The notes under the pieces are model-generated. The model was not told the DNA's origin, ran no database searches, and was given only the letters and a program-made list of their open reading frames with translations. A stretch of 64,000 bases of DNA, taken from NCBI RefSeq assembly GCF_030848505.1, contig NZ_JAVDDU010000013.1, forward strand, positions 1 through 64,000, in the 5' to 3' direction. Every line of letters begins with the position of its first letter. The stretch's first letter is position 1. The position numbers and the translations under genes are program-made. Source of the DNA: Marinimicrobium hydrolyticum (GTDB lineage Bacteria > Pseudomonadota > Gammaproteobacteria > Pseudomonadales > Cellvibrionaceae). Below, in pieces: positions 4,214 to 47,430 of the stretch.

Positions 4214-5521
4214 ATGAAAATAACCGCTGTAAACGCCCAAAAACTCACCGAACATAGCTACTACAAGATCCTCTTTACGGTCCTGTTTGCGGCTTACCCC
4301 CTAGTGGCACTGACCACCTTTCGGGGGCATCGAGCTATTCCGATCCTACTGTTGTTGGTGGCGTTCGTCGCCCTGGCGCGCAAAGTCCGCGCCTGGCCCG
4401 CCGAACTCACCCAATGGGCCTGTGCTTTGGCGCTGCTCACGGCCCCTTTCTACCTGTCTTTTGCCTTTGGCGGCTTGGAAGCCCCCACCATGGAGCGGGT
4501 CAGCTACGGTTGGTTATTCCTGGCCATTGGTTCGGCGGCTTATGTGGCCAAACCCAGCCTAACCTGGTTCGGTGGTGCGTTAGTGATAGGTGCTTATGCC
4601 ACATTGGCGATGCAACTGATCAGCGGCGGGGCTCGACCCTCGCTGGGCTTTAACCCCATTCCCTACGCAGAAGTCGCCGCCGCGTTTTTCTGCCTGTTGT
4701 GCGTGCTGGTAGTCCGCGTTAAAAGCCCGTGGCAAGTCATCGCCATAGTCTTCGGCCTGGTTGGCTGGCTAATCGTCATAACCCTTACACAAACCCGCGG
4801 CGCCATGCTGGCCATGCTGCCGGGGCTAGCATTTATTTTGGCGCACTTTGCCAAGCGCTTTGGCCCCAAAATCAGTGCCGGTGTCCTTCTTGGCCTGATC
4901 GCCCTCGGCTGGGTAGGGGATATGGCTAGCGGGCACATGGTTTCCCAGCGTTTTTTGTTGGCGGTTGAGGATGTACAGCAATACCGGGAAGAACCAAAAA
5001 CCTTCAGCTCCACCGCTGTACGCCTGGAGCTGTGGCGCTCCGCGCTGATGGTGGCCCGGGAATACCCCATGGGCCTGGGCGAAGACGGCGCTCGGGAAAC
5101 CGCCATCGAATGGTCCAAAGAAGGGCGCCTACAGCCCTACGTGCAACCGCAACTAAAAGTGGCCCACTTCCATTCCGACTACCTGCAACAACTGGCCGTC
5201 ACGGGCTACATCGGCTTGATTGGCCTGCTGCTGTTCTACGGCTTGCTGCTGCGCCACTTTTACCAGCGCCGGGACGAGCTCCCAGGGGCCATGGGCTTGG
5301 TATTCGTCCTGTCGTACATGGTATCCGGCCTCACGGACGTGCCCCTCTACAACCGTTTGACCCTGTTCTCATTCTTCGTGGTCATCACCCTCTGTTTCGT
5401 CTGTAAACGGGCACCATCGGAGGCTAAAAACTCCCCTCTAAAAACTCTTAAGGGAAGCGTAGTTGAGCTTAAGGATCCAATGGAGCCTGTAGCTGAAGAT
5501 GATTGGAAGGCGCTGTCTTGA
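4214..5521 (+). CDS. waaL: O-antigen ligase / polymerase family protein
   Basis: This is an inner-membrane protein of the Wzy/WaaL family, predicted to transfer lipid-linked glycan to lipid A-core. The 435 residues contain about ten hydrophobic segments, starting ILFTVLFAAYPLVAL. The Wzy_C-type loop follows the central segments: LTQTRGAMLAMLPGLA and, further on, the periplasmic loop with VAREYPMGLGEDGARE and KVAHFHSDYLQQLAVTGYIG, where the conserved H is expected. The C-terminal tail after the last helix (GLTDVPLYNRLTLFSFF) is short and polar. A second diverged copy of this 3' segment lies downstream of the next two genes (6137-6216). WaaL and Wzy are hard to separate by sequence; the ABC exporter in the locus favours ligase. 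Confidence 0.8.
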   Translation: MKITAVNAQKLTEHSYYKILFTVLFAAYPLVALTTFRGHRAIPILLLLVAFVALARKVRAWPAELTQWACALALLTAPFYLSFAFGGLEAPTMERVSYGWLFLAIGSAAYVAKPSLTWFGGALVIGAYATLAMQLISGGARPSLGFNPIPYAEVAAAFFCLLCVLVVRVKSPWQVIAIVFGLVGWLIVITLTQTRGAMLAMLPGLAFILAHFAKRFGPKISAGVLLGLIALGWVGDMASGHMVSQRFLLAVEDVQQYREEPKTFSSTAVRLELWRSALMVAREYPMGLGEDGARETAIEWSKEGRLQPYVQPQLKVAHFHSDYLQQLAVTGYIGLIGLLLFYGLLLRHFYQRRDELPGAMGLVFVLSYMVSGLTDVPLYNRLTLFSFFVVITLCFVCKRAPSEAKNSPLKTLKGSVVELKDPMEPVAEDDWKALS

Positions 5522-14736: not shown

Positions 14737-14829
14737 GTTTCCAACACGTTTGGGTATGGTTTGTGTTGTGTTTAAGTGCTGGAGTTGGTTGGCTAATGAT
14801 CTCGGTGGGATTGGATGGATGTATGCGCG

Positions 14830-16593
14830 ATGAATTTGCATAGAGTTAGAGAGTTAAATCGAGCTAGAAAGTTTTCTGAGGTTCTCTCGATCATCGATAA
14901 CAAGGATGCATTAAATAGTATTGAGTTGGCTACAGAGAGAGCATATGCGTTACGGCTGACGAAACGTCTGCATGAAGCTGAGGAGCTATTAACTAGCTTT
15001 CCATGGCAGTCTGAGAAGAATACCAAATTCCTCAAGGAGTTAGGCCATCTTTTTGTTTGTATGAAGAAGTTTGTTGAGGCTTCCGAGCTGCTAGATAGGC
15101 TAATAAATTTTTATGGTTTTGAGTCGCCTTCTGTGTATGTCGATTTCATCAAAACAAGTTTAGCAATGGGTCGCTCTGAGTCGGCAAATCAGTCGTTGAC
15201 TTACGCGGTGAAAAAGTGGCCGGAAAACAAAAAAATTCTAGACTGCTATCAGTACTTTGTGCCAAGCACTAAACCAAAGCCCCCCCCTGTTGATCACGGT
15301 TACCCTGGCGATTTTCTTAAAAAGGTTTGTGACTTTCTATACTTTGGCTATCTTCCCTCGACCTATAATGCAAGAAAGCATGCTTCCTATTTTGAAGAGA
15401 TATTGGCAGATGATACGCTTGAGGTGTTCGACCCCGATAATCCGGCGAGTATGAGGTTGATGCTCGAGACAATAATCAAAGAGAATGTAGATCGGTCTGG
15501 TTCAGAATGCTTTAGGGTAGGAGTTAGTTCTGGCTATGATTCCAGGCTTATTCTTTCAGCGTTGAGCAACGTGGTGGATTCAAATCGTATATTTCCGTTT
15601 ACGATCGGTACCAGGGGAAACAAAGATATTACCCTTGCTCCAGTTTTGATTGGCCAATACTTCAAGCACTATAGATGTCAAATTACAGACGAGATTGCCG
15701 GCGCATCGATTGATGTACAAGATTCTGCGTCTGATTACGTCGAAGGAATGACGTTCGATGCAAAGGTTGCGAAACGGTCTGTTAAGTCGACTGGGTCATC
15801 ATCGGATTCCACAAAAACTGACCACGAGTCGTTACGAATGAAAGGCGCCCCTAACTTCAATGGTTTTATGGGTGATCCACTATCTAGTTCTCATTTGCCG
15901 AAAATATCGTCCAATAGCTTTTCTGCAGCTAAGGAATATCATGCAAGAAAGTTTAGTCAGTACATAAAGGGTGATGTTAAGAATGGCATCGCATATGATG
16001 CGGGAATACTTCCTGCTTGGTATAAACCATCGGAGTCATTGGCGAATGAGCCATTGCTGGATCAAGATATTCTGTCCTACGATGATCAGTTAGATATTTT
16101 CTACCGGACGTATCAGTATATAAGGTTGCTTGCTCCTCAAGGGTGGACGGAATGGGAGTTGGCGAAATTTCCTCAGGCTATCAGGGACAGGCTCGTAGCA
16201 AGGCGAGACCGTATGATTTTGCCGTTCAATGACCCACGCTGGATTAGATCCTGCTTGCTTACTCCACTGGGATTGCGAAGAGAACAAAAATTTTACAAAA
16301 ACTTTGCTGCAGAGGCCTACCCTGAGTATTTTCAGGATTTAGTGAATCCTAAAATTTTAAATGGTTACGACCTCTCTGGTGCCACCAATATGGATTGGGG
16401 GTACTTGTGGCTAAACATTCCCGAGTTTAAATTGTCGGTAATGAATGTTCTAGCTTCCTTGAAAGCCCGTGATCTTTGGTTTGATCCCTTCGTGGCTGTT
16501 GAGTTTGCGAATAGCAGGGTTAAGGGTTACCCCGCTTTGCTTAAAGGTTTGTGTGCTCTCGAGTTAAACTTGCGCGCAGGAACAATAAAATAA
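14830..16593 (+). CDS. Asparagine-synthetase-like amidotransferase with TPR-like N terminus
   Basis: The protein has a helical, TPR-like N-terminal half (residues 1-145) and an ATP-pyrophosphatase domain of the AsnB superfamily from about 160. The PP-loop reads RVGVSSGYDSRLIL near residues 229-242, a variant of the usual SGGxDS. No class-II glutaminase domain with catalytic N-terminal cysteine precedes it. Such proteins in polysaccharide loci are thought to form amides on uronic acids. ATG 14830 was chosen over an in-frame ATG at 14815; neither has a strong ribosome-binding site. The gene is markedly AT-rich. A second AsnB-like protein is encoded at 25478. Confidence 0.7.
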   Translation: MNLHRVRELNRARKFSEVLSIIDNKDALNSIELATERAYALRLTKRLHEAEELLTSFPWQSEKNTKFLKELGHLFVCMKKFVEASELLDRLINFYGFESPSVYVDFIKTSLAMGRSESANQSLTYAVKKWPENKKILDCYQYFVPSTKPKPPPVDHGYPGDFLKKVCDFLYFGYLPSTYNARKHASYFEEILADDTLEVFDPDNPASMRLMLETIIKENVDRSGSECFRVGVSSGYDSRLILSALSNVVDSNRIFPFTIGTRGNKDITLAPVLIGQYFKHYRCQITDEIAGASIDVQDSASDYVEGMTFDAKVAKRSVKSTGSSSDSTKTDHESLRMKGAPNFNGFMGDPLSSSHLPKISSNSFSAAKEYHARKFSQYIKGDVKNGIAYDAGILPAWYKPSESLANEPLLDQDILSYDDQLDIFYRTYQYIRLLAPQGWTEWELAKFPQAIRDRLVARRDRMILPFNDPRWIRSCLLTPLGLRREQKFYKNFAAEAYPEYFQDLVNPKILNGYDLSGATNMDWGYLWLNIPEFKLSVMNVLASLKARDLWFDPFVAVEFANSRVKGYPALLKGLCALELNLRAGTIK

Positions 16594-22511: not shown

Positions 22512-24122
22512 ATGCATATGAAAGTGCTGGATTGCACGCTTCGCGATGGTGGTTATTACAATAACTGGAATTTCACGACGGAGCTGGCCAACGATTATCT
22601 CAAAGCCATGCAAGCCGCTAGAGTGGATGTAGTAGAGCTGGGCTTAAGATCCTTGATCAACAAGGGGTTTAAGGGCCCAAACGCATTTACCACTGAGGCT
22701 TACCTGGATTCTCTAGACATCCCGGCGGGGCTCTCTGTAGCAGTGATGGTCAATGCAACCGAGTTGGTGGGTGAAGGTACCCAGAATAAAACGTTGGCGG
22801 CATTGTTTCCTTTTCCCGCATCAGAATCCAAAGTGGATGTAGTGCGCATTGCCTGTCACGTTCACGAATTCAAGGAGGCGTTACCCGCCTCGAAGTGGTT
22901 GAAAGACCGAGGCTTTGCTGTTGGCTTTAATTTGATGCAGGTGGCTGACCGTAGCCGTCAGGAGATTGAGGCGCTAGCTCAGGAGGCAAGCCAATACCCG
23001 CTCGACGTACTCTATTTTGCGGACAGCATGGGCAGTATGACGCCAGCGGATACCTTAAACATCTTGAACGCTTTTCGGGTGCACTGGTCCGGTCCGATGG
23101 GGGTTCATACCCATGACAACAAAGGGCTGGCACTTCAGAATACGTTGACTGCCTATAACGAAGGGGTTGAGTGGCTAGATGCCACTGTGACCGGTATGGG
23201 GCGCGGTCCAGGTAATGCGCGAACAGAGGAGCTGGTTATTGAGGCGGCGGAGATCCGCAACTCGGCGATGAACCTCGTTCCGTTAATGACTCTGATCCGC
23301 CAGTTTTTTCAGCCGTTGAAAGCCCAGTGCGGTTGGGGTTCCAATCCTTATTATTACCTATCGGGTAAGTACGGGATTCATCCGACTTACATTCAAGAGA
23401 TGCTGGGCGATTCCCGCTACAGTGAAGAAGACGTTCTAGCTACCATCGAACACCTTAAGACCGAGGGCGGTAAGAAGTTCAGCTTCAATACTCTTGATGC
23501 AACCCGAAACTTTTATGTGGGGCAGCCCCGCGGCAGTTGGCGCCCAGCCGACTTGTTTGCTGGCCGCGAGGTGCTGCTTCTGGGCACTGGACCCGGCGTA
23601 GCGGAACACCGCAAAGCGCTGGAAGCCTATATTAAGCATGCCAAGCCAATTGTGGTGGCTATGAACACCCAATCAGCCGTTTCTCAGAGCTTGATTGATG
23701 TTCGAATTGCTTGTCACCCGGTCCGCTTGCTGGCGGACTGCGACCATTATGCTGAGTTACCTCAGCCACTGATTACGCCCGCCTCCATGCTTCGGGAAGA
23801 CGTGAGGTGTGCTCTTGGAGATAAGAAGCTCTTGGATTATGGGCTGGCGGTTGAAGAAGGTTGTTTTAGCTTCAACGAATACTCGTGCGTATTGCCGTCT
23901 TCTCTGGTTGTTTGCTACGCGTTGGCGGTACTCACATCCGGTAACGCGACGCGGATCCTGATGGCTGGATTCGACGGTTATTCAGCGGACGACCCCCGTA
24001 ATGCGGAAATGAATACAATTTTGGGGTTGTATCAGGACCAAGCTGAAGCAAAAGATCTGCTATCTATTACCGAGACCCGATATGATTTGCCCGCGAAAAG
24101 CGTTTACGGACTGGCTGGGTGA
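22512..24122 (+). CDS. DRE-TIM (HMGL-like) aldolase fused to a C-terminal Rossmann-like domain
   Basis: The first 310 residues are an HMGL-like TIM-barrel aldolase of the 4-hydroxy-2-oxovalerate aldolase type. They contain LDCTLRDGGYYNNWNF (metal-binding D), VVELGLRSL, YFADSMGSM and GVHTHDNKGLALQNTL (metal-binding HxH), then GMGRGPGNARTEEL. Family members condense or cleave 4-hydroxy-2-keto acids with pyruvate or acetyl-CoA. Residues about 345-536 are an extra domain: EVLLLGTGPGVAEHRKAL, VVAMNTQSA, CHPVRLLADC, RILMAGFDGYS. It resembles the DUF115/sialyltransferase-type nucleotide-binding fold only loosely. The stop overlaps the start region of the CMP-transferase, and the HAD gene follows, so the three form a unit. 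Confidence 0.75.
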   Translation: MHMKVLDCTLRDGGYYNNWNFTTELANDYLKAMQAARVDVVELGLRSLINKGFKGPNAFTTEAYLDSLDIPAGLSVAVMVNATELVGEGTQNKTLAALFPFPASESKVDVVRIACHVHEFKEALPASKWLKDRGFAVGFNLMQVADRSRQEIEALAQEASQYPLDVLYFADSMGSMTPADTLNILNAFRVHWSGPMGVHTHDNKGLALQNTLTAYNEGVEWLDATVTGMGRGPGNARTEELVIEAAEIRNSAMNLVPLMTLIRQFFQPLKAQCGWGSNPYYYLSGKYGIHPTYIQEMLGDSRYSEEDVLATIEHLKTEGGKKFSFNTLDATRNFYVGQPRGSWRPADLFAGREVLLLGTGPGVAEHRKALEAYIKHAKPIVVAMNTQSAVSQSLIDVRIACHPVRLLADCDHYAELPQPLITPASMLREDVRCALGDKKLLDYGLAVEEGCFSFNEYSCVLPSSLVVCYALAVLTSGNATRILMAGFDGYSADDPRNAEMNTILGLYQDQAEAKDLLSITETRYDLPAKSVYGLAG

Positions 24123-24127
24123 ACGGT

Positions 24128-24814
24128 ATGGGAATGAAAGTATTTTTGCCTTGCCGCAAAGGTAGCGAACGGGTTCCGCGTAAAAACATTAAGCCATTCG
24201 CCGGGTACCCTCATGGGTTGCTGGAGTTGAAGTTGCGTCAGTTGATTCAGGCAGAACGAATCGATGAAGTGATCTTGTCGACCAACGATGAGGACATACT
24301 TGAATACGCACGTACTTTGGGCAGTGAGAAACTAACGATTCATCATAGAGCGGACTCTTTGTGCACGAGTGCAACCAGTACCGACGAGCTGATGGCCCAT
24401 GTGGTTGACTTGATTCCGGAGGGCCACATTCTTTGGACTCACGTAACGTCTCCGTTTGTTAATGCGACGTGCTATGACCAGATGATCAAATGCTACTTTG
24501 AGCAGCTTGATCATGGTTACGACTCCCTGATGTCTTCCACGCTCATTCGATCCTTTCTGTGGAACGACGGAGGCCCGATCAACTATGACAGGGCAGTCGA
24601 AAAATGGCCCAGAACCCAGACTTTGCCCGCCGTCCATGAGGTAAATAGCGCGGCATTCATAAATAGCGCCGAAAATTACCGGCGCTACGCAGATCGGATT
24701 GGGCAAAAGCCATTTTTGTTTTCTCTGGAATCGATAGTTGCCCATGACATTGATTGGGAGCCCGACTTTGTTCTAGCAGAGTCGATCGCTCAAACGGGGC
24801 TAGTCGAACTATGA
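24128..24814 (+). CDS. CMP-sugar (acylneuraminate-type) cytidylyltransferase
   Basis: A 228-residue cytoplasmic transferase that activates an ulosonic acid with CTP. The N-terminal CTP-binding loop is LPCRKGSERVPRKNIKPFAG, the NeuA/KdsB-type signature, followed by EVILSTNDEDI, HHRADSLCTSATSTDELMAH and ILWTHVTSPFV. Starts at ATG 24128 or 24134 are both plausible; a GTG at 24119 overlaps the aldolase stop. It ends ATGA with the HAD gene. Its presence right after an aldolase suggests that the acceptor of CMP is made by that aldolase. Which ulosonic acid is involved cannot be read. Confidence 0.85.
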   Translation: MGMKVFLPCRKGSERVPRKNIKPFAGYPHGLLELKLRQLIQAERIDEVILSTNDEDILEYARTLGSEKLTIHHRADSLCTSATSTDELMAHVVDLIPEGHILWTHVTSPFVNATCYDQMIKCYFEQLDHGYDSLMSSTLIRSFLWNDGGPINYDRAVEKWPRTQTLPAVHEVNSAAFINSAENYRRYADRIGQKPFLFSLESIVAHDIDWEPDFVLAESIAQTGLVEL

Positions 24815-25458
24815 TTGACCGCTATCAAACAATAGTATTCGATTGTGACGGGGTTATTCTTAATTCTAACAAGGTCAAGACAGATGCGTTTTTCCAGGCA
24901 GCTTTGCCATACGGGGAGGAGCTGGCCAACGCGCTTGTTCGCTTTCATGTGGAGAACGGCGGAATTTCGCGCTATGTAAAGTTTAAACATTTTTTGGATG
25001 ATATTGTTCCAGAAGGTGCGAAAGGGCCAGCGTTGAAAGAGCTGCTAATTAGCTATGCCCAGAAAGTGAGAGCGGGCTTGTTGGAGTGTGACGTGACTCC
25101 CGGGTTAGATGATCTGCGGCAGGCTTCAGGTCAGGCGCGTTGGCTAGTCGCTTCTGGCGGCGACCAAGGCGAGCTAAGAGAAGTGTTTGCGGAGCGCGGA
25201 CTGGATACGCTGTTCGATGGAGGCATCTTCGGCAGCCCTGACGCCAAGGATGATATCCTCGCCCGAGAGCTGACTGAGCGGGAACAGAGTCCTGCCACTT
25301 TGTTTGTTGGGGATAGCCGATACGATCATGTTGTATCTCAAAAATTTGGGCTGGAATTTGTTTTTGTCACTCAGTGGACGGAGTTTTACGATTGGAAGTC
25401 GTATAGCGAAGAAAATGTAGTATTCACAGTAACTGAGCCATACTGCTTACTGCTGTAG
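24811..25458 (+). CDS. HAD-family sugar phosphatase
   Basis: A 215-residue HAD hydrolase: motif I FDCDGVILNSN (residues 10-20, nucleophile D), a helical cap, motif II LVASGGDQGE and motif IV FVGDSRYDHVVSQ. The start ATG 24811 overlaps the preceding TGA (ATGA). It probably removes a phosphate from the sugar intermediate between the aldolase and cytidylyltransferase steps, as KdsC does in the Kdo pathway. This role is inferred from the neighbours. Confidence 0.8.
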   Translation: MIDRYQTIVFDCDGVILNSNKVKTDAFFQAALPYGEELANALVRFHVENGGISRYVKFKHFLDDIVPEGAKGPALKELLISYAQKVRAGLLECDVTPGLDDLRQASGQARWLVASGGDQGELREVFAERGLDTLFDGGIFGSPDAKDDILARELTEREQSPATLFVGDSRYDHVVSQKFGLEFVFVTQWTEFYDWKSYSEENVVFTVTEPYCLLL

Positions 25459-25490
25459 TGGTTAAATAGGAAGCAGTATGGATTTTTTTA
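25438..25490 (+). promoter_or_regulatory. Hairpin followed by a T-run, overlapping a start codon
   Basis: CCATACTGCTT at 25438-25448 is perfectly complementary to AAGCAGTATGG at 25471-25481, with a 22-nt loop and then ATTTTTTTA. The right arm contains the ATG (25478) of the next gene and abuts its AGGA ribosome-binding site. The structure looks like an intrinsic terminator inside the operon, or a translational switch. It spans the HAD gene's last codons and the junction. Confidence 0.6.
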
Positions 25491-27355
25491 TAGGTAGTGG
25501 TTCCTTTAAGTCAAAATTTGAATCTGGCGCTGGGCTCGCATCTCGACCTCAACTGTCGTTCGGACGCCAATTTGTGGTTGGTTCGAGTGAGCCGTTTAAG
25601 ACCTTTAATTCATTGAATTTGTTGTTCAGTGGTGCGCGATTAACAAAGGATTCATTTCTTTCCCATTGGAACTTTGATCAGGCGAGTGATTCGGATGTAT
25701 ACGCGCATTATCAAAAACGAAACACGGATTTCAGTTTGGGCGTATTTTCACTTCTGGCTTGGTCTGAGGAAGAGTGGGAGCTCTCGCTCGACCGTTTGGC
25801 TCAATATACGGTATTTATTTGGACCTCTGGCGACGACTATCTAATAAGCAACTCTCTGGATTTGATGGTTAAGGTGCTTCACCTTTCCGGGTTCAGTGTT
25901 AAACGGTCTACACGAAGTACTGTTGAGGCTCTGGTGTATGGAACGACCTTTGGGTGTGCTACAGGGTTTGAAGGAATAACACTTTATCGTTCGCCGAAAG
26001 CATCTTTTCGCAGTGGCCAATTGAATATCGATGAATACCTATTTGTCAAAGAACTTTATTCAATTGACAAGAGGGATAAGTATGAAGATTATCTGGATGA
26101 GGCGATTGAATTTATAAGTGACGCGGCCCGCAATATTTGTCTGGACGCGTTCGGAGGAACAATTCTAACGGACTTGACTGGTGGTGTTGATAGTCGCCTT
26201 GTATTGTCGATTTTACTGCAATCTTCTCTAGAGCCTGAGGATATCAGTGTTTTCTGCTTAGGTTCTGATTCGAGAGCAGACAAAATTGTTGCTGACTATT
26301 TGGTCGAGCAGTATAACCTCTCGCCAGGTAAGTTCTTTAATGCGAAATCACCCGAGGGAAGCAGTTCAGCAGACTCCATCGAAAATGGAGTGCATCGGTT
26401 TTATGGAACGAAGCTGGCCGATTTTGGTGATTTTGGCGATGGGAAAATCATAGGGCAAACGAAGATAACTGGGTACTATGGCGAGTTGACTCGCCTGTTT
26501 TATGACTATATCCCAATGACGAATGAACGATTGGTTGATGAGTTTTTGTCCGTCGGAGGCCTCAATCGCTACATTTCTCAGGATGTTGTTGTTAGCTTGA
26601 GGAGCAAAATGCTCAACTTTTTTGTCAGCCTCGATAAGCTTGGTTTGACTTTTGATGATAAGTTGCATGCGCTATACCTTTTAAATAGAAATAAAGTTCA
26701 TTTTGGTATGTCGGCACATCTCGCAGAGAAGACGAGGCAGGCATTTCACCCATTAAACTCTTCGCTTTTTGTCAAACTCTCTCTCCTTGTGTCTCGTGAG
26801 GAGCGTAAAGCAAATAAAGTAGCGTTCGATGTGATTGGGCGTTTGAGCCCTTCGCTGCAAATGGAGCCGATGGCTGAAAAAGTCTGGTCCAAATGTTTGT
26901 TGCCCTCCGGTTTTGATTATGAGTCATATCGTAACCGTTGTTTTATCAAAAATGGTGCGATGGCGCTTTCAGTTAATAGATACAAATATTCTCAGGCCAA
27001 CCTTCTCCATCGGAAGGTTCCGAGAGTGTATGAGAATCCAAAATTTTCAGAGAGAATGCGAAAGCTCGGTGTTCAGTACCACTGGGCGATGCTTCCAGAC
27101 GTGAAGTTGCGAGTCGAAAAGTACTTGAATCAAATCGATGCTGGTTCGCAAGCTGAAGGCATATCTGAGGTGTTGAATATAGTAAATATTAGGGAGCTTA
27201 TTGGCTGCCTAAACTTTGAGGCTAATACCCATAGAGAAGTCGGTCCGAGCAATATCGAGGCCAAATTTTTGGTTAAAGCACTATCCGCACTAGCCTGGCT
27301 GCAGGGTAAGGAGGTATTTCCAGCTGTCAACTACCACTTTCATGTCCATAATTGA
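25478..27355 (+). CDS. Asparagine-synthetase-like amidotransferase
   Basis: 625 residues. Residues 1-200 resemble the fold of the class-II glutaminase half of AsnB but the essential N-terminal Cys2 is absent (it starts MDFF). Residues 215-470 are the ATP-pyrophosphatase domain with LTDLTGGVDSRLVLSILL; the PP-loop GGVDSR is at 235-240. Such AsnB relatives in surface-glycan loci are presumed to amidate carboxyl groups, using ammonia from another source if no glutaminase is active. The gene is distinctly AT-rich and begins inside a terminator-like hairpin. Asparagine synthesis itself is unlikely. Confidence 0.7.
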   Translation: MDFFIGSGSFKSKFESGAGLASRPQLSFGRQFVVGSSEPFKTFNSLNLLFSGARLTKDSFLSHWNFDQASDSDVYAHYQKRNTDFSLGVFSLLAWSEEEWELSLDRLAQYTVFIWTSGDDYLISNSLDLMVKVLHLSGFSVKRSTRSTVEALVYGTTFGCATGFEGITLYRSPKASFRSGQLNIDEYLFVKELYSIDKRDKYEDYLDEAIEFISDAARNICLDAFGGTILTDLTGGVDSRLVLSILLQSSLEPEDISVFCLGSDSRADKIVADYLVEQYNLSPGKFFNAKSPEGSSSADSIENGVHRFYGTKLADFGDFGDGKIIGQTKITGYYGELTRLFYDYIPMTNERLVDEFLSVGGLNRYISQDVVVSLRSKMLNFFVSLDKLGLTFDDKLHALYLLNRNKVHFGMSAHLAEKTRQAFHPLNSSLFVKLSLLVSREERKANKVAFDVIGRLSPSLQMEPMAEKVWSKCLLPSGFDYESYRNRCFIKNGAMALSVNRYKYSQANLLHRKVPRVYENPKFSERMRKLGVQYHWAMLPDVKLRVEKYLNQIDAGSQAEGISEVLNIVNIRELIGCLNFEANTHREVGPSNIEAKFLVKALSALAWLQGKEVFPAVNYHFHVHN

Positions 27356-29934: not shown

Positions 29935-30954
29935 ATGAGTCACAAGCTGGTTGACCAGATAAATCAAGTGCGCTCTTCTTTTAAAAGGATTGAGGAGGAA
30001 TACCAAGTTATTTGTGAGCCGATTCGAGCGATTCGAAAGGCGAAGATTCTGCCCCCGGAGGTAAGCGGGGTGGTTGAGGAAATTCGGAATTTTAAATTTT
30101 ATCCCAAACTTACGCACGTTCCCAATGCCTTTTTTGAAAAGAGCCAATCGCACTCTTACCGCTTGCAAAGGGCTGCGCAGATAGGTGTTATTAACCGATC
30201 CAAAGAACTGCCGCCACGCGTTATAAGCAATAAGACCAAGGGGGCTCTATTTGCGAAGCGTGTAGGATTGCGTACGCCGGATTCAACTCTGCCAGTACCC
30301 TTGGAAAAAGTGGAGTTTACGTCTCCCAGAGTGATAAAGCCGCTTCACTCTGACGGTGGTAACTGTGTTTACGCCATACAACCCGCGCCCGACGGAACGC
30401 TTATCAACCGTTTTTCAGGAAAGACCTATGAGTCCGTTGGCGAGCTAAAGGATTCGATTCGCAATCATATGGCTAAGGTGGGTGTCAGTAAGGACATTTG
30501 GCTGCAAGAGGAGATGATTGTAGGTTCGAAAGGAGATCCTACCGAAACCATGGATGTTAAATTCTATACGTTCTATGGGCGAGTTGCCTTAGTGCTACAA
30601 GTGGACCGTTGGAGAGGCAAAAAGTATAGATTTTTCGATGCTGAAGGAACTATGGTTAACACCGGTAAGTACAGTGCAGATGGTGATATGACAGCGCTGT
30701 TTGATAAAAAGTTAGTAAAGCTTGCGAGCGAAATCAGTTTGAAAATTCCCTGGCCGCATATTCGGATTGATTTCTTGGTTTCGGATACGGATTTTCGTTT
30801 TGGCGAGTTTACTTGCCAGCCCGGTCAGGCCTCTATGTTTAATACGGAGTGGGATTCAGAATTGGGGAAATGCTATGTTGAAGCCCAATCTCGCCTGTAT
30901 GAAGACTTTATCAAAGGCAAGCAGTTTACCGAGTATAACGAAATTATAAAGTGA
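29935..30954 (+). CDS. TupA-like ATP-grasp protein
   Basis: 339 residues with the pattern of the TupA-type ATP-grasp family, which links amino acids to carboxyl groups in polysaccharide loci. The visible pieces are RVIKPLHSDGGNCVYAI (ATP-lysine region), IWLQEEMIV, DVKFYTFYGRVALVLQVDR, and IRIDFLVSDTDFRFGEFTCQPG with the metal-binding D..E pair. A very strong ribosome-binding site AAAGGAGGT sits eight bases before ATG 29935. AT-rich composition. Another TupA-like gene follows at 31100. The amide product is inferred. Confidence 0.7.
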   Translation: MSHKLVDQINQVRSSFKRIEEEYQVICEPIRAIRKAKILPPEVSGVVEEIRNFKFYPKLTHVPNAFFEKSQSHSYRLQRAAQIGVINRSKELPPRVISNKTKGALFAKRVGLRTPDSTLPVPLEKVEFTSPRVIKPLHSDGGNCVYAIQPAPDGTLINRFSGKTYESVGELKDSIRNHMAKVGVSKDIWLQEEMIVGSKGDPTETMDVKFYTFYGRVALVLQVDRWRGKKYRFFDAEGTMVNTGKYSADGDMTALFDKKLVKLASEISLKIPWPHIRIDFLVSDTDFRFGEFTCQPGQASMFNTEWDSELGKCYVEAQSRLYEDFIKGKQFTEYNEIIK

Positions 30955-31099
30955 TTTTTGCGCCCATATTCTGGTGGTGCTACGTGGTATGTTGCTGTGT
31001 TGAATTTGTTCCCATAGAATCGATTAAGAATGAGGTTTTTACAATGGAATTGACGCAAGTCGCAGCCATTTTTAAAATTTTGGCTGCGAGGTTGAACAC

Positions 31100-32245
31100 A
31101 TGAGTGAGGTGGAGTTTGATCGGCCTGATGCTGATTCGTCTTTTTTGACCTTTGTCAGGAATGAGTTTCAAAAAAGGGGAACGCCGCTTAGAAAGAAATT
31201 GGCGAACAAACATTCTGCTGCCCAGGAAGTCCAAAAGCTCGGACTGAAGGTGCCTAAGAAGCTCAGAATCCTGGAGAATATCGAGGATTTAAAGCCGTGG
31301 CATTTGAAGCGACGTGCGGTTTTAAAGTATGGCCGTGGATGGTCGGCACGCGGAGTTATGCTGCTGGAACGCAAGGGGATCAACCGATACTTTGACCACC
31401 TCAGCCTGCAGAAATATGCGCTGCAAAGCATAAAAGAGCATCAAGCTCGAGTCGCTAAATCCTTCGGAAGCAAAGACCCGAACTGGATACTTGAGGAGCT
31501 GCTTGAGCCTACCCATGCATTCGGCGCCGTTCCTTACGATTACAAATTTTATGTATTCGGTGGGCAGATCGGCTTGATACTTCAAGTGGACAGGAATACG
31601 ACACCACCAAAGCAAGCGTTGTTTGATGGTTCATTTAAGCCTCTCCATTTGGGCGTAGACTATCTTCTTACTGGCAAAAGTTGTCAGCCGGGACTGCCAA
31701 TAGTTCCGCCTCACGCGACAGAGCTTATGTGGTGGGCGCTTAAGTTAGCATCCATTACAGATTCACCGTTCGTGAGTATTGATTTGTACGATACGCCCCA
31801 GGGGCCGGTGTTTGGAGAATTTACCTTTTCACCCGGTGCTACGCATAAACGCATGTTCACACTTTCTAAGCGCTTGATTGATTATTACGATGAGCTTTTC
31901 AACGCGGCGGAAAAACGGTTGGAAGAAGGTGTCGAAGTTAAGCGAGGCCAATTCGACACCGATATGGCGCGCTTTGTGGACCTTGTCGCTACAGCGGATT
32001 ACAAAACCTTGGCGCGTACTTCAAAAATTCCTACAGAGTTGTATAAAACATGGAGTGGAGTGGCTTACAATCGAGGCAGTATTGGGGCACTGAGGCTTAG
32101 TGAGTACTTTCGCAATCGGGCTGAAGCTGCGGAGGATCAAACGGAAAAGGCGATTTATACGCACCTTTCGAGCGCATGGGAATCGATTCAAAAAGAGGTT
32201 AAGGCACATACCAGAAAGTACAAGGCTATGGCTGCAACACCGTGA
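31100..32245 (+). CDS. TupA-like ATP-grasp protein (second copy)
   Basis: 381 residues, related in plan to the protein at 29935: LKYGRGWSARGVMLL (ATP-binding strand), WILEELLEPTH, DYKFYVFGGQIGLILQVDR, and VSIDLYDTPQGPVFGEFTFSPGA with the catalytic D and E. A helical C-terminal extension (residues about 280-381) is not present in the first copy. Two such ligases may add two groups or act on two carboxylates. ATG 31100 follows a GCGAGG at suitable distance. Substrate unknown. Confidence 0.65.
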   Translation: MSEVEFDRPDADSSFLTFVRNEFQKRGTPLRKKLANKHSAAQEVQKLGLKVPKKLRILENIEDLKPWHLKRRAVLKYGRGWSARGVMLLERKGINRYFDHLSLQKYALQSIKEHQARVAKSFGSKDPNWILEELLEPTHAFGAVPYDYKFYVFGGQIGLILQVDRNTTPPKQALFDGSFKPLHLGVDYLLTGKSCQPGLPIVPPHATELMWWALKLASITDSPFVSIDLYDTPQGPVFGEFTFSPGATHKRMFTLSKRLIDYYDELFNAAEKRLEEGVEVKRGQFDTDMARFVDLVATADYKTLARTSKIPTELYKTWSGVAYNRGSIGALRLSEYFRNRAEAAEDQTEKAIYTHLSSAWESIQKEVKAHTRKYKAMAATP

Positions 32246-37014: not shown

Positions 37015-37785
37015 ATGAAGCCACTTCAGTTTATTAGCCTTTTGGACATTAAAGCACGCATGGGCCTAAAGTCCGAGGCATCCAAACTCTACCTGAGCTA
37101 TCTCTGGTGGGTGCTGGAACCCATACTATGGGCGCTCGCCTTCTTCTTCGTTTTTGAAATATTGTTGGCCTTCGGCCGCGACCTGTTTTTCATTTTATGC
37201 GGCAAGGTGCCGTTTTTGTGGTTCAGCAAATCCGTGACCAACGGTTCCGGCAGCATCGTCTCCGGGAAGAGCCTGATTAACCAAACCAATGTGCCAAAGC
37301 ATTTTTTTCCTTATGAAACGGTGCAGGGGATTCTGTATAAACAATGGCTCGTATTCCTAGTGCTTCTCGGGCTTGCGGTTATATTCGGTTATGCGCCTAC
37401 ATGGCACTGGCTGTGGCTAATTCCGCTGATCATCGTACAGTATTTGGTGATCTTGGCCGTTACGTTGCTTGGTGCGCTGTTGGTCAGCTATGTTCGGGAT
37501 GTACGCATACTAATTAACATGAGTATGTTGTTTCTGATGTTTACCTCGGGGATATTCTGGGACCTCAGCCGCATATCGGACCCGATTAAGCGCGACTTAC
37601 TAATAACCTGGAACCCTCTGGCGTATCTAATTGATGCCTACCGTAAGGTAATTATGTACAACACCATGTACGACGTAAGTCACTTGCTTGCCGTTGCAGG
37701 GGTGTTCTTCGGGGCTATTGTTCTACTTCATGTGATTTACCATTACAAAGGCCAGGCTATTGCGTCCAGGGTGATTAACTCATGA
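37015..37785 (+). CDS. wzm: ABC-type polysaccharide exporter, permease (Wzm/KpsM type)
   Basis: An inner-membrane permease of 256 residues with six hydrophobic segments: WALAFFFVFEILLAF, QWLVFLVLLGLAVIFGY, LWLIPLIIVQYLVILAVTLLG, NMSMLFLMFTSGIFWDLS and a last one near 230. It contains the ABC-2 pattern YLWWVLEP near the N terminus and WNPLAYLIDAYRKVI before the last helix. It pairs with the ATPase gene through an ATGA overlap. It would export lipid-linked glycan across the inner membrane. Confidence 0.85.
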   Translation: MKPLQFISLLDIKARMGLKSEASKLYLSYLWWVLEPILWALAFFFVFEILLAFGRDLFFILCGKVPFLWFSKSVTNGSGSIVSGKSLINQTNVPKHFFPYETVQGILYKQWLVFLVLLGLAVIFGYAPTWHWLWLIPLIIVQYLVILAVTLLGALLVSYVRDVRILINMSMLFLMFTSGIFWDLSRISDPIKRDLLITWNPLAYLIDAYRKVIMYNTMYDVSHLLAVAGVFFGAIVLLHVIYHYKGQAIASRVINS

Positions 37786-38522
37786 GTGACGGACAGATTC
37801 TATTATCGGCAAAAGACCTTGAGTTCGAATATTCGAGCCGAGTTTGGGGTTTTAAGCGTTTGACGTATCCAGTGCTCAAAGGCATGACTTTTGATGTCCG
37901 CCGTGGTGAAACTCTGGGTATTGTTGGCCGCAATGGCTGTGGTAAAAGCTCGCTGCTTCGTATTCTCAATGGTGTAATTGCCCCCACGGGTGGCACCTTA
38001 ATTGAGCATAAGGGTATGACTCGCATTTTGCTCACTTTGGGGCTGGGTTTTGATGTTCATTTGACCGGGCGTGATAACGCCATGTTGAGCGCCATGCTTC
38101 AGGGCTACTCCAGGGAGCGCGCTCGCGCCTCGTTGGAAGATATTAAGGAGTTTTCGGAGTTGGGCGACTTTTTTGAGCGCCCCGTAAAAATGTACTCGTC
38201 GGGAATGCGCAGCCGACTTGGCTTTTCTACGGCGATGAAAACTGAAGTGGATTTGTTGTTGATTGATGAAACCCTGAGCGTCGGCGACCAAAACTTTAAC
38301 CGCAAAGCCGAAAAAGCAATGATGGAGAAAATCAATAGCGATCAGACCGTAATATTCGTCAGCCACAGCGGCAAGCAGGTAAATAAGGTTTGCAGCCGGG
38401 CGATTTGGCTTGAAGATGGTCAGATCAAAGCTGAAGGAGACACCAAAAGCGTTGCCCGAGAGTACAAACAATTTATGGACGCTCTGAGCAAGCAGGGGGG
38501 GAAAACCGCGTGGGCGAGTTAA
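37782..38522 (+). CDS. wzt: ABC-type polysaccharide exporter, ATPase (Wzt/KpsT type)
   Basis: 246 residues with Walker [15 protein letters not shown], the signature [13 protein letters not shown] (KpsT/Wzt style), Walker [15 protein letters not shown] and the switch histidine in [11 protein letters not shown]. It lacks the extra C-terminal carbohydrate-binding domain of longer Wzt proteins, so chain length or terminus recognition must lie elsewhere. The start overlaps the permease stop, and the 3' end overlaps the rmlA start by 13 bp. Confidence 0.9.
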
Positions 38523-39439
38523 AACGCAAGGGTATTATCCTCGCTGGTGGTTCCGGCACCCGCTTGTACCCGCTTACTAAAGGCGCCAGCAAGCAGCTGA
38601 TGCCCATCTATGATAAGCCCATGATTTACTACCCGTTAACCACTCTGATGTTTGCGGGCATACGGGACATCCTGATTATCACTACGCCTCATGACCTAGA
38701 GTCTTTCCAGCGCCTGCTGGGGGATGGTAGTCAGTGGGGGATCAATCTCCAGTACGTGGCACAACCCAGCCCGGACGGGCTCGCGCAAGCGTTTATATTG
38801 GGCGAGGAGTTTCTTGCCGGCCATCCCAGTGTATTGATCCTGGGCGACAATATATTTTACGGGCACGGTTTTCTGAGCTTGCTGCACAGCGCTGATCAGC
38901 GCAAGCAGGGTGCGACGGTCTTTGGTTACCATGTGGATACGCCGGAGGCCTACGGCGTGGCGGAGTTTGATGCTAAGGGACAGGTGGTTAGCTTAGAGGA
39001 AAAACCAGCGCAGCCCAAATCCAACTACGCCGTGACCGGGCTTTATTATTATGACAATCAGGTATGCGATATCGCCAAGAACCTGAAGCCTTCCGCACGC
39101 GGCGAATTGGAAATCACCGATATCAATATGCATTATCTGCGCAAGGGTGAACTTACCGTGGAGATCATGGGCCGGGGTTATGCCTGGTTGGATACGGGAA
39201 CCCACGAGAATCTGCTCAGCGCTGCGCAATATGTGCAAAGCATTGAGAAACGCCAAGGGCTTAAAATTTCTTGCCCGGAAGAGGCCGCCTATCGCCAGGG
39301 ATTCATTACCGATGAACAGTTGGAAAAACTGGCCACAGACCTACTGAAAAGTGGCTACGGCCAGTACCTGTTTAAGATTTTGAAAGATCCGCAACTCACC
39401 TGTGGCGAATTGAGTCGGCGGTCAGTGGACGAGCGATGA
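38510..39439 (+). CDS. rmlA: Glucose-1-phosphate thymidylyltransferase
   Basis: First enzyme of dTDP-L-rhamnose synthesis (dTTP + Glc-1-P to dTDP-glucose). 309 residues with [52 protein letters not shown] and [13 protein letters not shown], all family signatures. GTG 38510 overlaps the wzt end, with GGGGGGAAA as ribosome-binding site. It is the first of four contiguous rml genes in order A-C-B-D. Confidence 0.95.
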
Positions 39440-40011
39440 AAATTATTGAGACGTCGATACCCGATGTAAAAGTATTGGAGCCAAAGCGCTTTGGAGACGA
39501 GCGCGGGTTTTTCATGGAAATCTTTCGGGAGCAGTGGTTTCGCGAGCACGTGGCCGATGTTGGGTTTGTTCAGGATAACCACTCAAAATCCAAACAAGGT
39601 ATTCTACGGGGGCTGCACTATCAGTTAGAGCAGCCTCAGGGAAAACTGGTTCGGGTGACATTCGGCGAGGTGTTTGACGTGGCGGTGGACCTTCGTGAAG
39701 ACTCCGCGACCTTTGGTCAGTGGTACGGCACACACTTGAGTGCCGGGAACTACCGCCAAATGTGGGTGCCAGCCGGTTTTGCTCACGGGTTTCTGGTACT
39801 TTCAGGCGAGGCTGAATTTCTCTACAAGTGCACTGATTACTACCATCCCGATTCCGAACAAACCCTGCTTTGGAATGACCCAACCCTCGCTATTAATTGG
39901 CCTATCGATGGTATTGCACAGGTGATCCTATCCGAAAAAGATCGATACGGGGCGACTTGGATGGAAGCGAAGAAGTTCAAACCGACTGGATCCCCGCTTT
40001 CGCGGGGATGA
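39436..40011 (+). CDS. rmlC: dTDP-4-dehydrorhamnose 3,5-epimerase
   Basis: Cupin-fold epimerase. 191 residues with [32 protein letters not shown] (catalytic His in GLHYQ), [33 protein letters not shown] and [13 protein letters not shown]. It starts by ATGA overlap with rmlA. The last eight codons (TGSPLSRG) and the stop lie within a dispersed hairpin repeat (39986-40013), so the native C terminus was replaced or extended by the repeat. Confidence 0.95.
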
Positions 40012-40182
40012 CGGGGTATTGTTGCCGAGCTCGGTGTACAGTCACGTAAGTTCTTCTCAATGCCGTCATCCCCGCGAAAGTGGGACGACAGGTTGGTACC
40101 GTCAGGTTCGTCATCCCCGCGAAGGCGGGACGACCGGTCGGTACGGTCAGTTTCGTCATCCCCGCGAAAGCGGGGATCCAGC
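39986..40182. repeat. Hairpin repeats between rmlC and rmlB, array D
   Basis: Four copies lie at about 39986-40013 (inside the rmlC end), 40062-40087, 40108-40133 and 40155-40181. The middle two are damaged (GTGGGACGAC, GCGGGACGAC). The block fills the 187-bp rmlC-rmlB gap and could form a stable mRNA structure inside the operon. Confidence 0.9.
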
Positions 40183-40198
40183 TTGTTTGGAGTTCTCT

Positions 40199-41257
40199 AT
40201 GAAACTATTGATTACCGGCGGAGCAGGCTTTATCGGTTCTGCTGTTGTGCGTCAGCTCATGGCTGAGAATGTTCACGAGCTTCTGGTTTTGGACGCGCTT
40301 ACCTACGCGGGAAATCTGGAATCCATTCCCGGCTACGATCAGCACCCGCGGGTTAAATTCTCAAAAACTGACCTGCGCGATGCTGAGGCAACGCGAGCGG
40401 CGGTGCTGCGTTTCCAGCCGGATATCATTATGCACCTGGCCGCCGAATCCCATGTGGACCGTTCCATCGAAGGCCCGCGTGAATTCCTTGAAACCAACGT
40501 CATGGGCACTTTCAACCTTCTCCAGGCGGCGCGGGAGAGTTACGGCCAGCTGGACGAGCACCAACGCAAACGCTTCCGATTCCATCATATTTCAACCGAC
40601 GAAGTGTATGGCGATTTGCACGGTACGGCTGATTTGTTTACTGAGAACACGCCTTACGCACCCAGCTCGCCTTATTCCGCCTCCAAAGCGGCGTCCGACC
40701 ATTTGGTGCGGGCGTGGGACAGGACTTACGGTTTGCCGACGGTGCTCACCAACTGTTCCAATAACTACGGGTCCTACCATTTTCCCGAAAAACTGATTCC
40801 TCACATGATCCTCAATGCACTGGCGGGCAAGTTTCTCCCTGTATACGGCGATGGATCTCAAGTTCGAGATTGGTTGTATGTGGAAGACCATGCGCGTGCA
40901 CTGATCGAAGTGGCGTTAAACGGTCGGGTAGGGGAGACCTACAACATTGGCGGACACAACGAAGTAAAGAATATTGACGTGGTGACCGCTATCTGCGGAA
41001 TTCTTGAAGAGCTCGCGCCGGAGAGACCTGCGGGAGTCGACCGGTACGAGGAGTTAATCACTTACGTCCAGGATCGCCCTGGCCACGATATGCGCTACGC
41101 CATTGACGCTTCCAAGATTCAGCGCGAACTGGGCTGGCGGCCGCAGGAAACGTTTGAAACCGGTTTGCGTAAAACCGTGCAATGGTACTTAGAGAACCGC
41201 GCTTGGTGGGAGCGGGTAATGAGCGGCGAATATCAACTGACTAGACTCGGCCTTTGA
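40199..41257 (+). CDS. rmlB: dTDP-glucose 4,6-dehydratase
   Basis: Second step of the rhamnose pathway. 352 residues, normal length, with Rossmann motif [41 protein letters not shown] (catalytic TDE), [15 protein letters not shown] (YxxxK) and [17 protein letters not shown] 40199 has GGAG eight bases before; the frame is open upstream to 40019 only because the repeats are translatable. It is followed by rmlD after one base. Confidence 0.97.
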
Positions 41258-41258
41258 T

Positions 41259-42119
41259 ATGAAAGTTCTGGTAACTGGCAGCGGTCAATTGGCTTGGGAG
41301 CTGTCACAGACAGTACCGGCAACTATTGAGCTAATTGAGGCTCCCCGAGGAGTGCTTGATATCACCGACAGAAGCGCGTGCCTGGAGCTACTTCAAAAGC
41401 ATCAGCCCAACTGGGTGGTTAATACGGCAGCCTATACGGCCGTGGACCGGGCGGAACAGGAGCGAGAGAAAGCGTTTGCCGCAAATGAACAGGGTGCGGC
41501 CAATGTCGCCGAGGCATGCAAGCTAGTTGACGCCCGGCTGGTGCACGTCTCAACGGATTTTGTTTTTGATGGCCGCAGCAACACGCCTTACTTGCCTGAA
41601 GCGCCTGTAAACCCCCTGAGTGTGTACGGTAGCTCCAAACTTGCCGGTGAGCGGGCGGTTGCAAGCGCATTACCCAGTACTGTGATCGTACGTACCAGCT
41701 GGCTTTACTCATCTACCGGCGCAAACTTTGTGAAAACCATATTGCGCTTGATGGCTGAAAAGCCCGAGCTGAATGTGGTGGCCGATCAGGTGGGCTCGCC
41801 AACCTGGGCGCGCGGCTTAGCCAGCGTGTTGTGGCGTGGTGTTATGAACGATGTTGCCGGTGGTCGATACCATTGGAGCGATGCTGGCCCTACCACTTGG
41901 TATGACTTTGCGGTTGCGATTCAGGAGTTGGCGCTGGAGTTAAACATTTTGGATCAGTCGATTCCGGTTCGCGCAATCCCCACTAGTGCTTACCCAACGC
42001 CTGCTGCACGACCCGCCTACAGCGTACTCGATACGCAGCTCACTGAAAACGTGTTTGGAGTTGAGGCGGAAGGCTGGCGGAGTCAGTTAAAAGCAATGCT
42101 CTTGCAGCTTAAAGGTTAA
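41259..42119 (+). CDS. rmlD: dTDP-4-dehydrorhamnose reductase
   Basis: Final step to dTDP-L-rhamnose. 286 residues with VLVTGSGQLAWELSQ (the usual GxxGQLG is GSGQLAW here), NTAAYTAVDRAEQE, HVSTDFVFDG, NPLSVYGSSKLAGERAV (YxxxK) and VRTSWLYSS. The stop overlaps by 4 bp with the convergent GT2 gene, ending the long plus-strand gene train. Confidence 0.95.
   Translation: MKVLVTGSGQLAWELSQTVPATIELIEAPRGVLDITDRSACLELLQKHQPNWVVNTAAYTAVDRAEQEREKAFAANEQGAANVAEACKLVDARLVHVSTDFVFDGRSNTPYLPEAPVNPLSVYGSSKLAGERAVASALPSTVIVRTSWLYSSTGANFVKTILRLMAEKPELNVVADQVGSPTWARGLASVLWRGVMNDVAGGRYHWSDAGPTTWYDFAVAIQELALELNILDQSIPVRAIPTSAYPTPAARPAYSVLDTQLTENVFGVEAEGWRSQLKAMLLQLKG

Positions 42120-46017: not shown

Positions 46018-47430
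<1,413 letters not shown>

Follow-up and report, generated by a model that had tools for sequence, protein, structure and literature searches.

An aldolase, cytidylyltransferase and HAD phosphatase gene set of Marinimicrobium hydrolyticum as a candidate source of a CMP-activated ulosonic acid without a phosphoenolpyruvate-dependent synthase

How could a bacterium provide a CMP (cytidine monophosphate)-activated 3-deoxy-2-ulosonic acid for a glycan when no gene for the usual synthase stands near the activating enzyme? The question is raised by three adjacent genes, encoding an aldolase, a cytidylyltransferase and a HAD phosphatase-like protein, in a stretch of 64,000 nucleotides of Marinimicrobium hydrolyticum (contig NZ_JAVDDU010000013.1, positions 1 to 64,000), which is referred to here as the window. 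To our knowledge the CMP-ulosonic acids known so far, namely 3-deoxy-D-manno-octulosonic acid (Kdo) and the sialic, pseudaminic and legionaminic acids, all arise through phosphoenolpyruvate (PEP)-dependent synthases belonging to a single superfamily, and it is these enzymes that genome surveys search for. A first-pass annotation of the window had proposed that the aldolase builds the acid. In the current analysis we consider it fairly probable that the three genes form a self-contained set for a CMP-activated 3-deoxy-2-ulosonic acid, with the aldolase replacing the PEP-dependent synthase.

The three genes lie in the order claimed by that annotation, on the forward strand and nearly without gaps. 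The first (22512..24122) encodes the aldolase of 536 residues, assigned to the HMGL-like family PF00682 (E 1.4e-26), in which residues 340-536 (23529..24119) form a C-terminal domain with a predicted Maf/GT42-like fold. It is followed by a NeuA/PseF-like cytidylyltransferase of 231 residues (24119..24814; PF02348, CTP_transf_3, E 7.2e-12) and by a HAD phosphatase-like protein of the subfamily IA type (24811..25458; PF00702, E 4.5e-9, and PF13419, E 1.2e-5). The HAD gene probably starts at the ATG at 24811, with a 4-base overlap with the stop of the cytidylyltransferase gene. The start of the latter is uncertain, being either the GTG at 24119, which overlaps the aldolase stop by 4 bases, or an in-frame ATG at 24128 or 24134.

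Conserved co-occurrence of the three genes, put forward in the annotation as a check on the proposal, has been found among relatives of the aldolase identified in a scan of GTDB genomes; the locus counts given here rest on the best 80 of 581 confirmed matches. Nine loci with short flanks were dropped (L077 with both partners, L098, L099 and L100 with the cytidylyltransferase, and five without a partner match), and the remaining 71 have at least 2300 bases downstream. Both partners are near the aldolase in 53 of these, the cytidylyltransferase only in 11, the HAD gene only in three and neither in four. The three loci with the HAD gene only belong to Streptomyces, lack the C-terminal domain and were counted apart. 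In the 68 loci that carry the C-terminal region the cytidylyltransferase is near in 64, the HAD gene as well in 53, and the genes are strictly contiguous in 43. The density of cytidylyltransferases elsewhere in the same loci gives a chance expectation of about 0.12 per 6 kb, against the 64 of 68 observed. The 53 loci with both partners include L066 and L074, with low scores at distances of at least 1.9 kb, and L079, with a HAD match of 36 bits. Among the organisms of the listed matches are Halomonas, Marinobacter, Pseudomonas, Idiomarina, Shewanella, Roseovarius, Prochlorococcus, Winogradskyella, Bacillus and Rossellomorea.

An even sample of 274 genomes from the class of the window has revealed a relative of the aldolase in 11. 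Six of these possess the C-terminal domain; all six stand beside a cytidylyltransferase and five beside a HAD gene, the sixth lying at a contig end. None of the five without the domain is beside a cytidylyltransferase, and in one of them (L021) weak 23-bit HAD matches fall inside long frames. When these five are taken with the three Streptomyces loci, a cytidylyltransferase is nearby in 64 of 68 loci with the domain versus 0 of 8 without it (Fisher p 2.6e-8, from rows related by descent and a test picked after viewing the data). Among the Bacilli the aldolase is encoded in 2 of 398 genomes, the Rossellomorea genome G274 included. It is found in none of the 37 other close relatives of the window's genome and so looks accessory, and a 3-kb stretch of the Brenneria locus L067 gave no match against 20,395 E. 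coli records.

The description of the first protein as a DRE-TIM aldolase holds, since the PF00682 model of the DRE-TIM metallolyase superfamily matches at 93.9 bits (cut-off 29) with the presumed metal-ligand positions conserved; the annotation overlooked the Maf/sialyltransferase-like domain fused to it. The protein is longer than a plain aldolase, and Pfam covers residues 3-246 only. Of the solved structures the nearest is that of BVU_2661 from Bacteroides vulgatus (3dxi, a 'putative aldolase'; phmmer E 5.4e-47), which comprises the N-terminal domain only and aligns over 297 residues with the AlphaFold2 (AF2) model (pLDDT 94.5; Z 38.2, 32% identity). No functional paper on BVU_2661 was found in the literature searched. 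The functionally known enzymes nearest by fold are the 4-hydroxy-2-oxovalerate aldolases (DmpG, 1nvm, Z 32.3), with the homocitrate synthases behind them (2ztj, Z 26.4). The match to PRK08195 (E 1.3e-30, 106.7 bits) is far under the family cut-off of 229, and the 4-hydroxy-2-oxovalerate aldolase equivalog TIGR03217 is matched at 95.9 bits against a cut-off of 286; judged by these scores, the protein is a relative of those aldolases outside their equivalog family.

Residues R11, D12, D171, S172, H199 and H201 are invariant in 57 aldolase relatives, and in the alignment with 1nvm R11, D12, H199 and H201 fall on residues of the same type, which we take to bind the metal and the enolate there. The histidine that we take to be the catalytic residue of DmpG aligns with Tyr15, which is nearly invariant in the same relatives. 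The nearest fold, the invariant ligand positions and the tyrosine in place of the histidine together suggest a related and distinct family of metal-dependent enzymes, probably pyruvate aldolases. It resembles the DmpG/BphI-type aldolases in fold, sequence and metal-ligand positions and differs from them in scores far below the family cut-off, in Tyr15 and in the fused domain. An acetaldehyde dehydrogenase partner as in the DmpG/BphI type turned up in no search, none of which was aimed at such a partner.

The assignment of the second gene as a NeuA/KdsB-type cytidylyltransferase can be narrowed to NeuA/PseF-like. It scores 46 bits with PF02348 (cut-off 22.6) and is nearest to NeuA, including NeuA structures, and to PseF, with a score under the cut-off of the PseF equivalog TIGR03584 (60.8 versus 205.7 bits). 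This likeness is shared with the CMP-Neu5Ac, CMP-Pse and CMP-Leg pathways of NeuB, NeuA and PseF, from which the present system differs in that its own genome has no NeuB. In the 64 loci with a cytidylyltransferase, 45 are of the KdsB-like type and 19 of the NeuA-like type. Mapped by parsimony onto a quickly built tree of 57 aldolases, the type switches 10 times, with at least five of the switches forced by well-supported branches, and shuffled labels give a mean of 11.9 changes, so that the type hardly follows the aldolase tree; the labels are weak for L024 (76 bits), L074 (117 bits) and L100 (96 bits, at a contig end). The near-identical aldolases of L023 and L025 have a PseF-like and a KdsB-like partner, respectively. 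Both of the alternating families activate 3-deoxy-2-ulosonic acids, which points to a product of the ulosonic acid class.

A profile search agrees with the annotation that the window has no NeuB or KdsA, and it found there no separate synthase that would serve this glycan. In the whole genome NeuB is absent and a single KdsA (400.3 bits) is encoded on contig C1, together with a housekeeping KdsB that passes its equivalog cut-off (296.9 versus 155.2 bits); a PEP-dependent synthase hidden elsewhere in the genome to serve the cassette was accordingly rejected. The clear cytidylyltransferases of this genome are the window gene and the KdsB on C1; a third match, of 24.6 bits, lies in a frame of 462 residues.

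The presence of that KdsA suggests a different explanation, in which the substrate of the cytidylyltransferase is a standard ulosonic acid, namely Kdo supplied by the housekeeping KdsA, with the aldolase and the HAD protein performing another step of the same glycan. KdsA is also over cut-off in 7 of ten carrier genomes searched, which favours this explanation, as does the passage of two broad KdsB subfamily cut-offs by the six KdsB-like cassette proteins scored. The same six proteins, however, fall under the KdsB equivalog cut-off (127.3-150.3 versus 155.2), and the genome of M. hydrolyticum already has its KdsB equivalog. NeuB is over cut-off in five of the ten carriers, two of them weakly (32-34 bits), and nine of the ten hold a strong NeuB or KdsA. 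The Rossellomorea genome G274, the completeness of which is not stated, has the cassette without a KdsA over cut-off, which argues against a supply of Kdo; its only NeuB match, of 32 bits, coincides with a KdsA match below cut-off, and we read both as its DAHP synthase. The Bacilli genome G291 also lacks a KdsA over cut-off; its strong NeuB (307 bits) belongs to another cluster some 80 kb away from the cassette, which encodes a PseF-like protein of its own (167 bits, cut-off 205.7) besides a PseD-like one, and the cassette stands alone among unrelated genes. In Bacillus ISL-41 (L081) the cassette lies next to a Kdo set of KdsA, KdsC, a KpsF-family isomerase and a KdsB-like gene, each system having its own KdsB-like cytidylyltransferase; the isomerase, a KdsD candidate, passes the KpsF family cut-off (319.6 versus 203.7) and not that of the KdsD equivalog (334.5 versus 505). 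A further cytidylyltransferase is present in 10 of the 11 loci holding NeuB or KdsA, that of L082 scoring only 44 bits. Separate cytidylyltransferases beside the NeuB or KdsA sets are the pattern expected of a separate cassette product, and we regard the activation of Kdo as unlikely.

The nearest characterised relatives of the aldolase make 4-hydroxy-2-oxo acids from short aldehydes, and the aldol product might accordingly be a small 4-hydroxy-2-oxo acid or a derivative of it, attached as a substituent other than a sugar after activation with CMP. The known substrates of both cytidylyltransferase families are nevertheless cyclic ulosonic acids, and a RhaM-family sugar mutarotase gene adjoins a Streptomyces relative, which points to sugar-like substrates. 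This explanation appears less likely still than the activation of Kdo.

The third protein was described in the annotation as a KdsC-like phosphatase, and this label has to be given up. The HAD protein matches the HAD-IA-type models TIGR02009 and TIGR01549, both below their cut-offs, whereas none of the KdsC models reaches E<=0.01; the KdsC of L081, by comparison, obtains 165.7 bits (cut-off 106.95). The proposal of an aldolase-built ulosonic acid otherwise gains indirect support from the conserved set, the pyruvate-aldolase fold, the ulosonic-type cytidylyltransferases, the absence of NeuB from the own genome and the carrier G274. With the CMP-Kdo pathway (KdsD-KdsA-KdsC-KdsB) the cassette shares the cytidylyltransferase family and a logic of carbon-carbon bond formation, dephosphorylation and CMP activation; it differs in having a pyruvate-type aldolase instead of the PEP-dependent KdsA and a HAD-IA protein instead of KdsC.

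The C-terminal domain of the window protein (about 197 residues) has no Pfam match over cut-off. Its AF2 model, built from 57 relatives, has a pLDDT of 97.3, and VIA-align places the Maf flagellin glycosyltransferase 5mu5 at the top (Z 13.9, rmsd 3.1, 185 of 197 residues aligned), followed by SteA (Z 12.3), HPPK of Methanocaldococcus (11.4), the GT42 sialyltransferase CstII (1ro8, 11.0) and Cst-I (10.3-10.4), with mammalian sialyltransferases at about 7-8. Foldseek alone gives six matches at E<=0.001, comprising four SteA chains, human ST8SiaIII and HPPK. In sequence-based searches 26 of the 57 relatives give E<=0.1 with the MptE-like family PF01973 (lowest value 6e-8) and the window's own domain does not, CstII is reached only at E 0.11 in profile comparison, and comparison with neighbouring MptE-like proteins aligns only 44 columns (E 2.3e-7). 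The structural matches place the domain in the Maf/GT42 fold, which also occurs in HPPK and SteA, neither of them a glycosyltransferase. A sialyltransferase-like role is the most attractive reading of the modelled domain, with the fold present also in enzymes of other function. The domain differs from the Maf and GT42 enzymes in being fused to an aldolase, in an identity of about 12% and in being shorter than CstII. The Maf/sialyltransferase-like fold predicted here for the last part of the aldolase is a new finding, and its fusion to the aldolase may bring the making and the transfer of a sugar together in one protein. A gene after the HAD gene in the Pseudomonas flexibilis locus (L037, 12994-13749) matches the GT29 sialyltransferases at 32 bits (Pfam cut-off 23).

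In the proposed pathway the metal-dependent aldolase domain would couple an aldose, probably in phosphorylated form, with the pyruvate enolate to give a 2-keto-3-deoxy sugar acid, from which the HAD protein would remove the phosphate before the cytidylyltransferase converts it to a CMP-sugar. The C-terminal domain would bind the CMP-sugar and probably transfer it, or else sense it, and the sugar would enter the surface polysaccharide of the surrounding cluster. A bolder reading than the replacement of the synthase by the aldolase is that of a third, PEP-independent route to CMP-ulosonic acids, in which the acid is the product of a class II pyruvate aldolase and the fused sialyltransferase-like domain hands on the CMP-sugar, one protein both starting and ending the pathway, and in which the cassette spreads between Gram-negatives and Gram-positives with a new ulosonic acid; this we put forward tentatively, as somewhat doubtful.

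Several observations weigh against an aldolase-built and fused-domain-transferred ulosonic acid. They include Tyr15 of the aldolase, the occurrence of the C-terminal fold in HPPK and SteA, and the strong NeuB or KdsA of nine of the ten carriers searched. Four of the 68 loci with the C-terminal domain have no same-strand cytidylyltransferase nearby: L058, L059 and L088, which are of the Pelagibacterales type and have neither partner (L058 with a B12-binding radical SAM gene downstream), and L061, with a KdsB-like gene on the opposite strand. In 15 of the 68 loci this HAD gene is missing within the set distances, a different one being present in L046 and L063. The Streptomyces loci L089, L090 and L093 encode an aldolase without the C-terminal domain and a HAD protein directly after it, without a cytidylyltransferase. 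A second pyruvate-type aldolase (HpcH/HpaI) occurs in the clusters of L014, L015, L023, L024, L046, L063 and L064, and a DHDPS-family gene adjoins the sets of L089 and L098. The ulosonate of the loci with a second aldolase could be the product of that enzyme, and from these seven clusters and the two DHDPS-type neighbours arises the explanation that the cassette aldolase cleaves, or only supplies an aldehyde, and that the other pyruvate aldolase builds the ulosonate. Such genes are found in a minority of loci and a profile search has identified no HpcH match in the window, and we consider this explanation quite improbable.

The variant cluster of L063 (11630-14967) comprises the aldolase, an LdpA_C/4Fe-4S family protein, the other HAD protein, the HpcH/HpaI aldolase and a KdsB-like cytidylyltransferase; L046 and L064 have clusters like it, the LdpA_C/4Fe-4S protein being noted for L063. 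The Streptomyces loci possibly represent a natural-product cluster, and L089 holds, besides the RhaM-family mutarotase and the DHDPS-family gene, ATP-grasp-like and SDR-like genes recognised by eye.

The surroundings of the cassette in the window look, from their gene content, like a surface polysaccharide cluster. They include an ABC-2 type export pair (37015-38522), rhamnose genes (38510-42119), glycosyltransferases, a protein of the Wzy_C/O-antigen ligase family (4214-5521) and a WecA-family transferase (46018-47034). Two TupA-like ATP-grasp proteins (29935-32245) lie within the cluster, suggesting an amide-linked decoration of the glycan. Two large proteins (14815-16593 and 25478-27355), the second directly 3' of the HAD gene, carry what look by eye like SGGxDSR-like PP-loop motifs, and Pfam gives no match for either at E<=0.01.

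Klebsiella K38 contains a 3-deoxy-pentulosonic acid, on which no useful paper was found. No description of this cassette and no polysaccharide structure from a carrier strain were found in the literature searched, the former judged mostly from titles and the openings of abstracts. Passages of two papers state that polymers of Cobetia can contain Kdo and make no mention of an aldolase (PMC11766843, PMC11641403).

If the aldolase does replace the synthase, a class of acidic sugars on cell surfaces would escape surveys based on NeuB or KdsA. The cassette would then explain cytidylyltransferases that have no synthase partner, and would provide a soluble enzyme set for making such acidic sugars.

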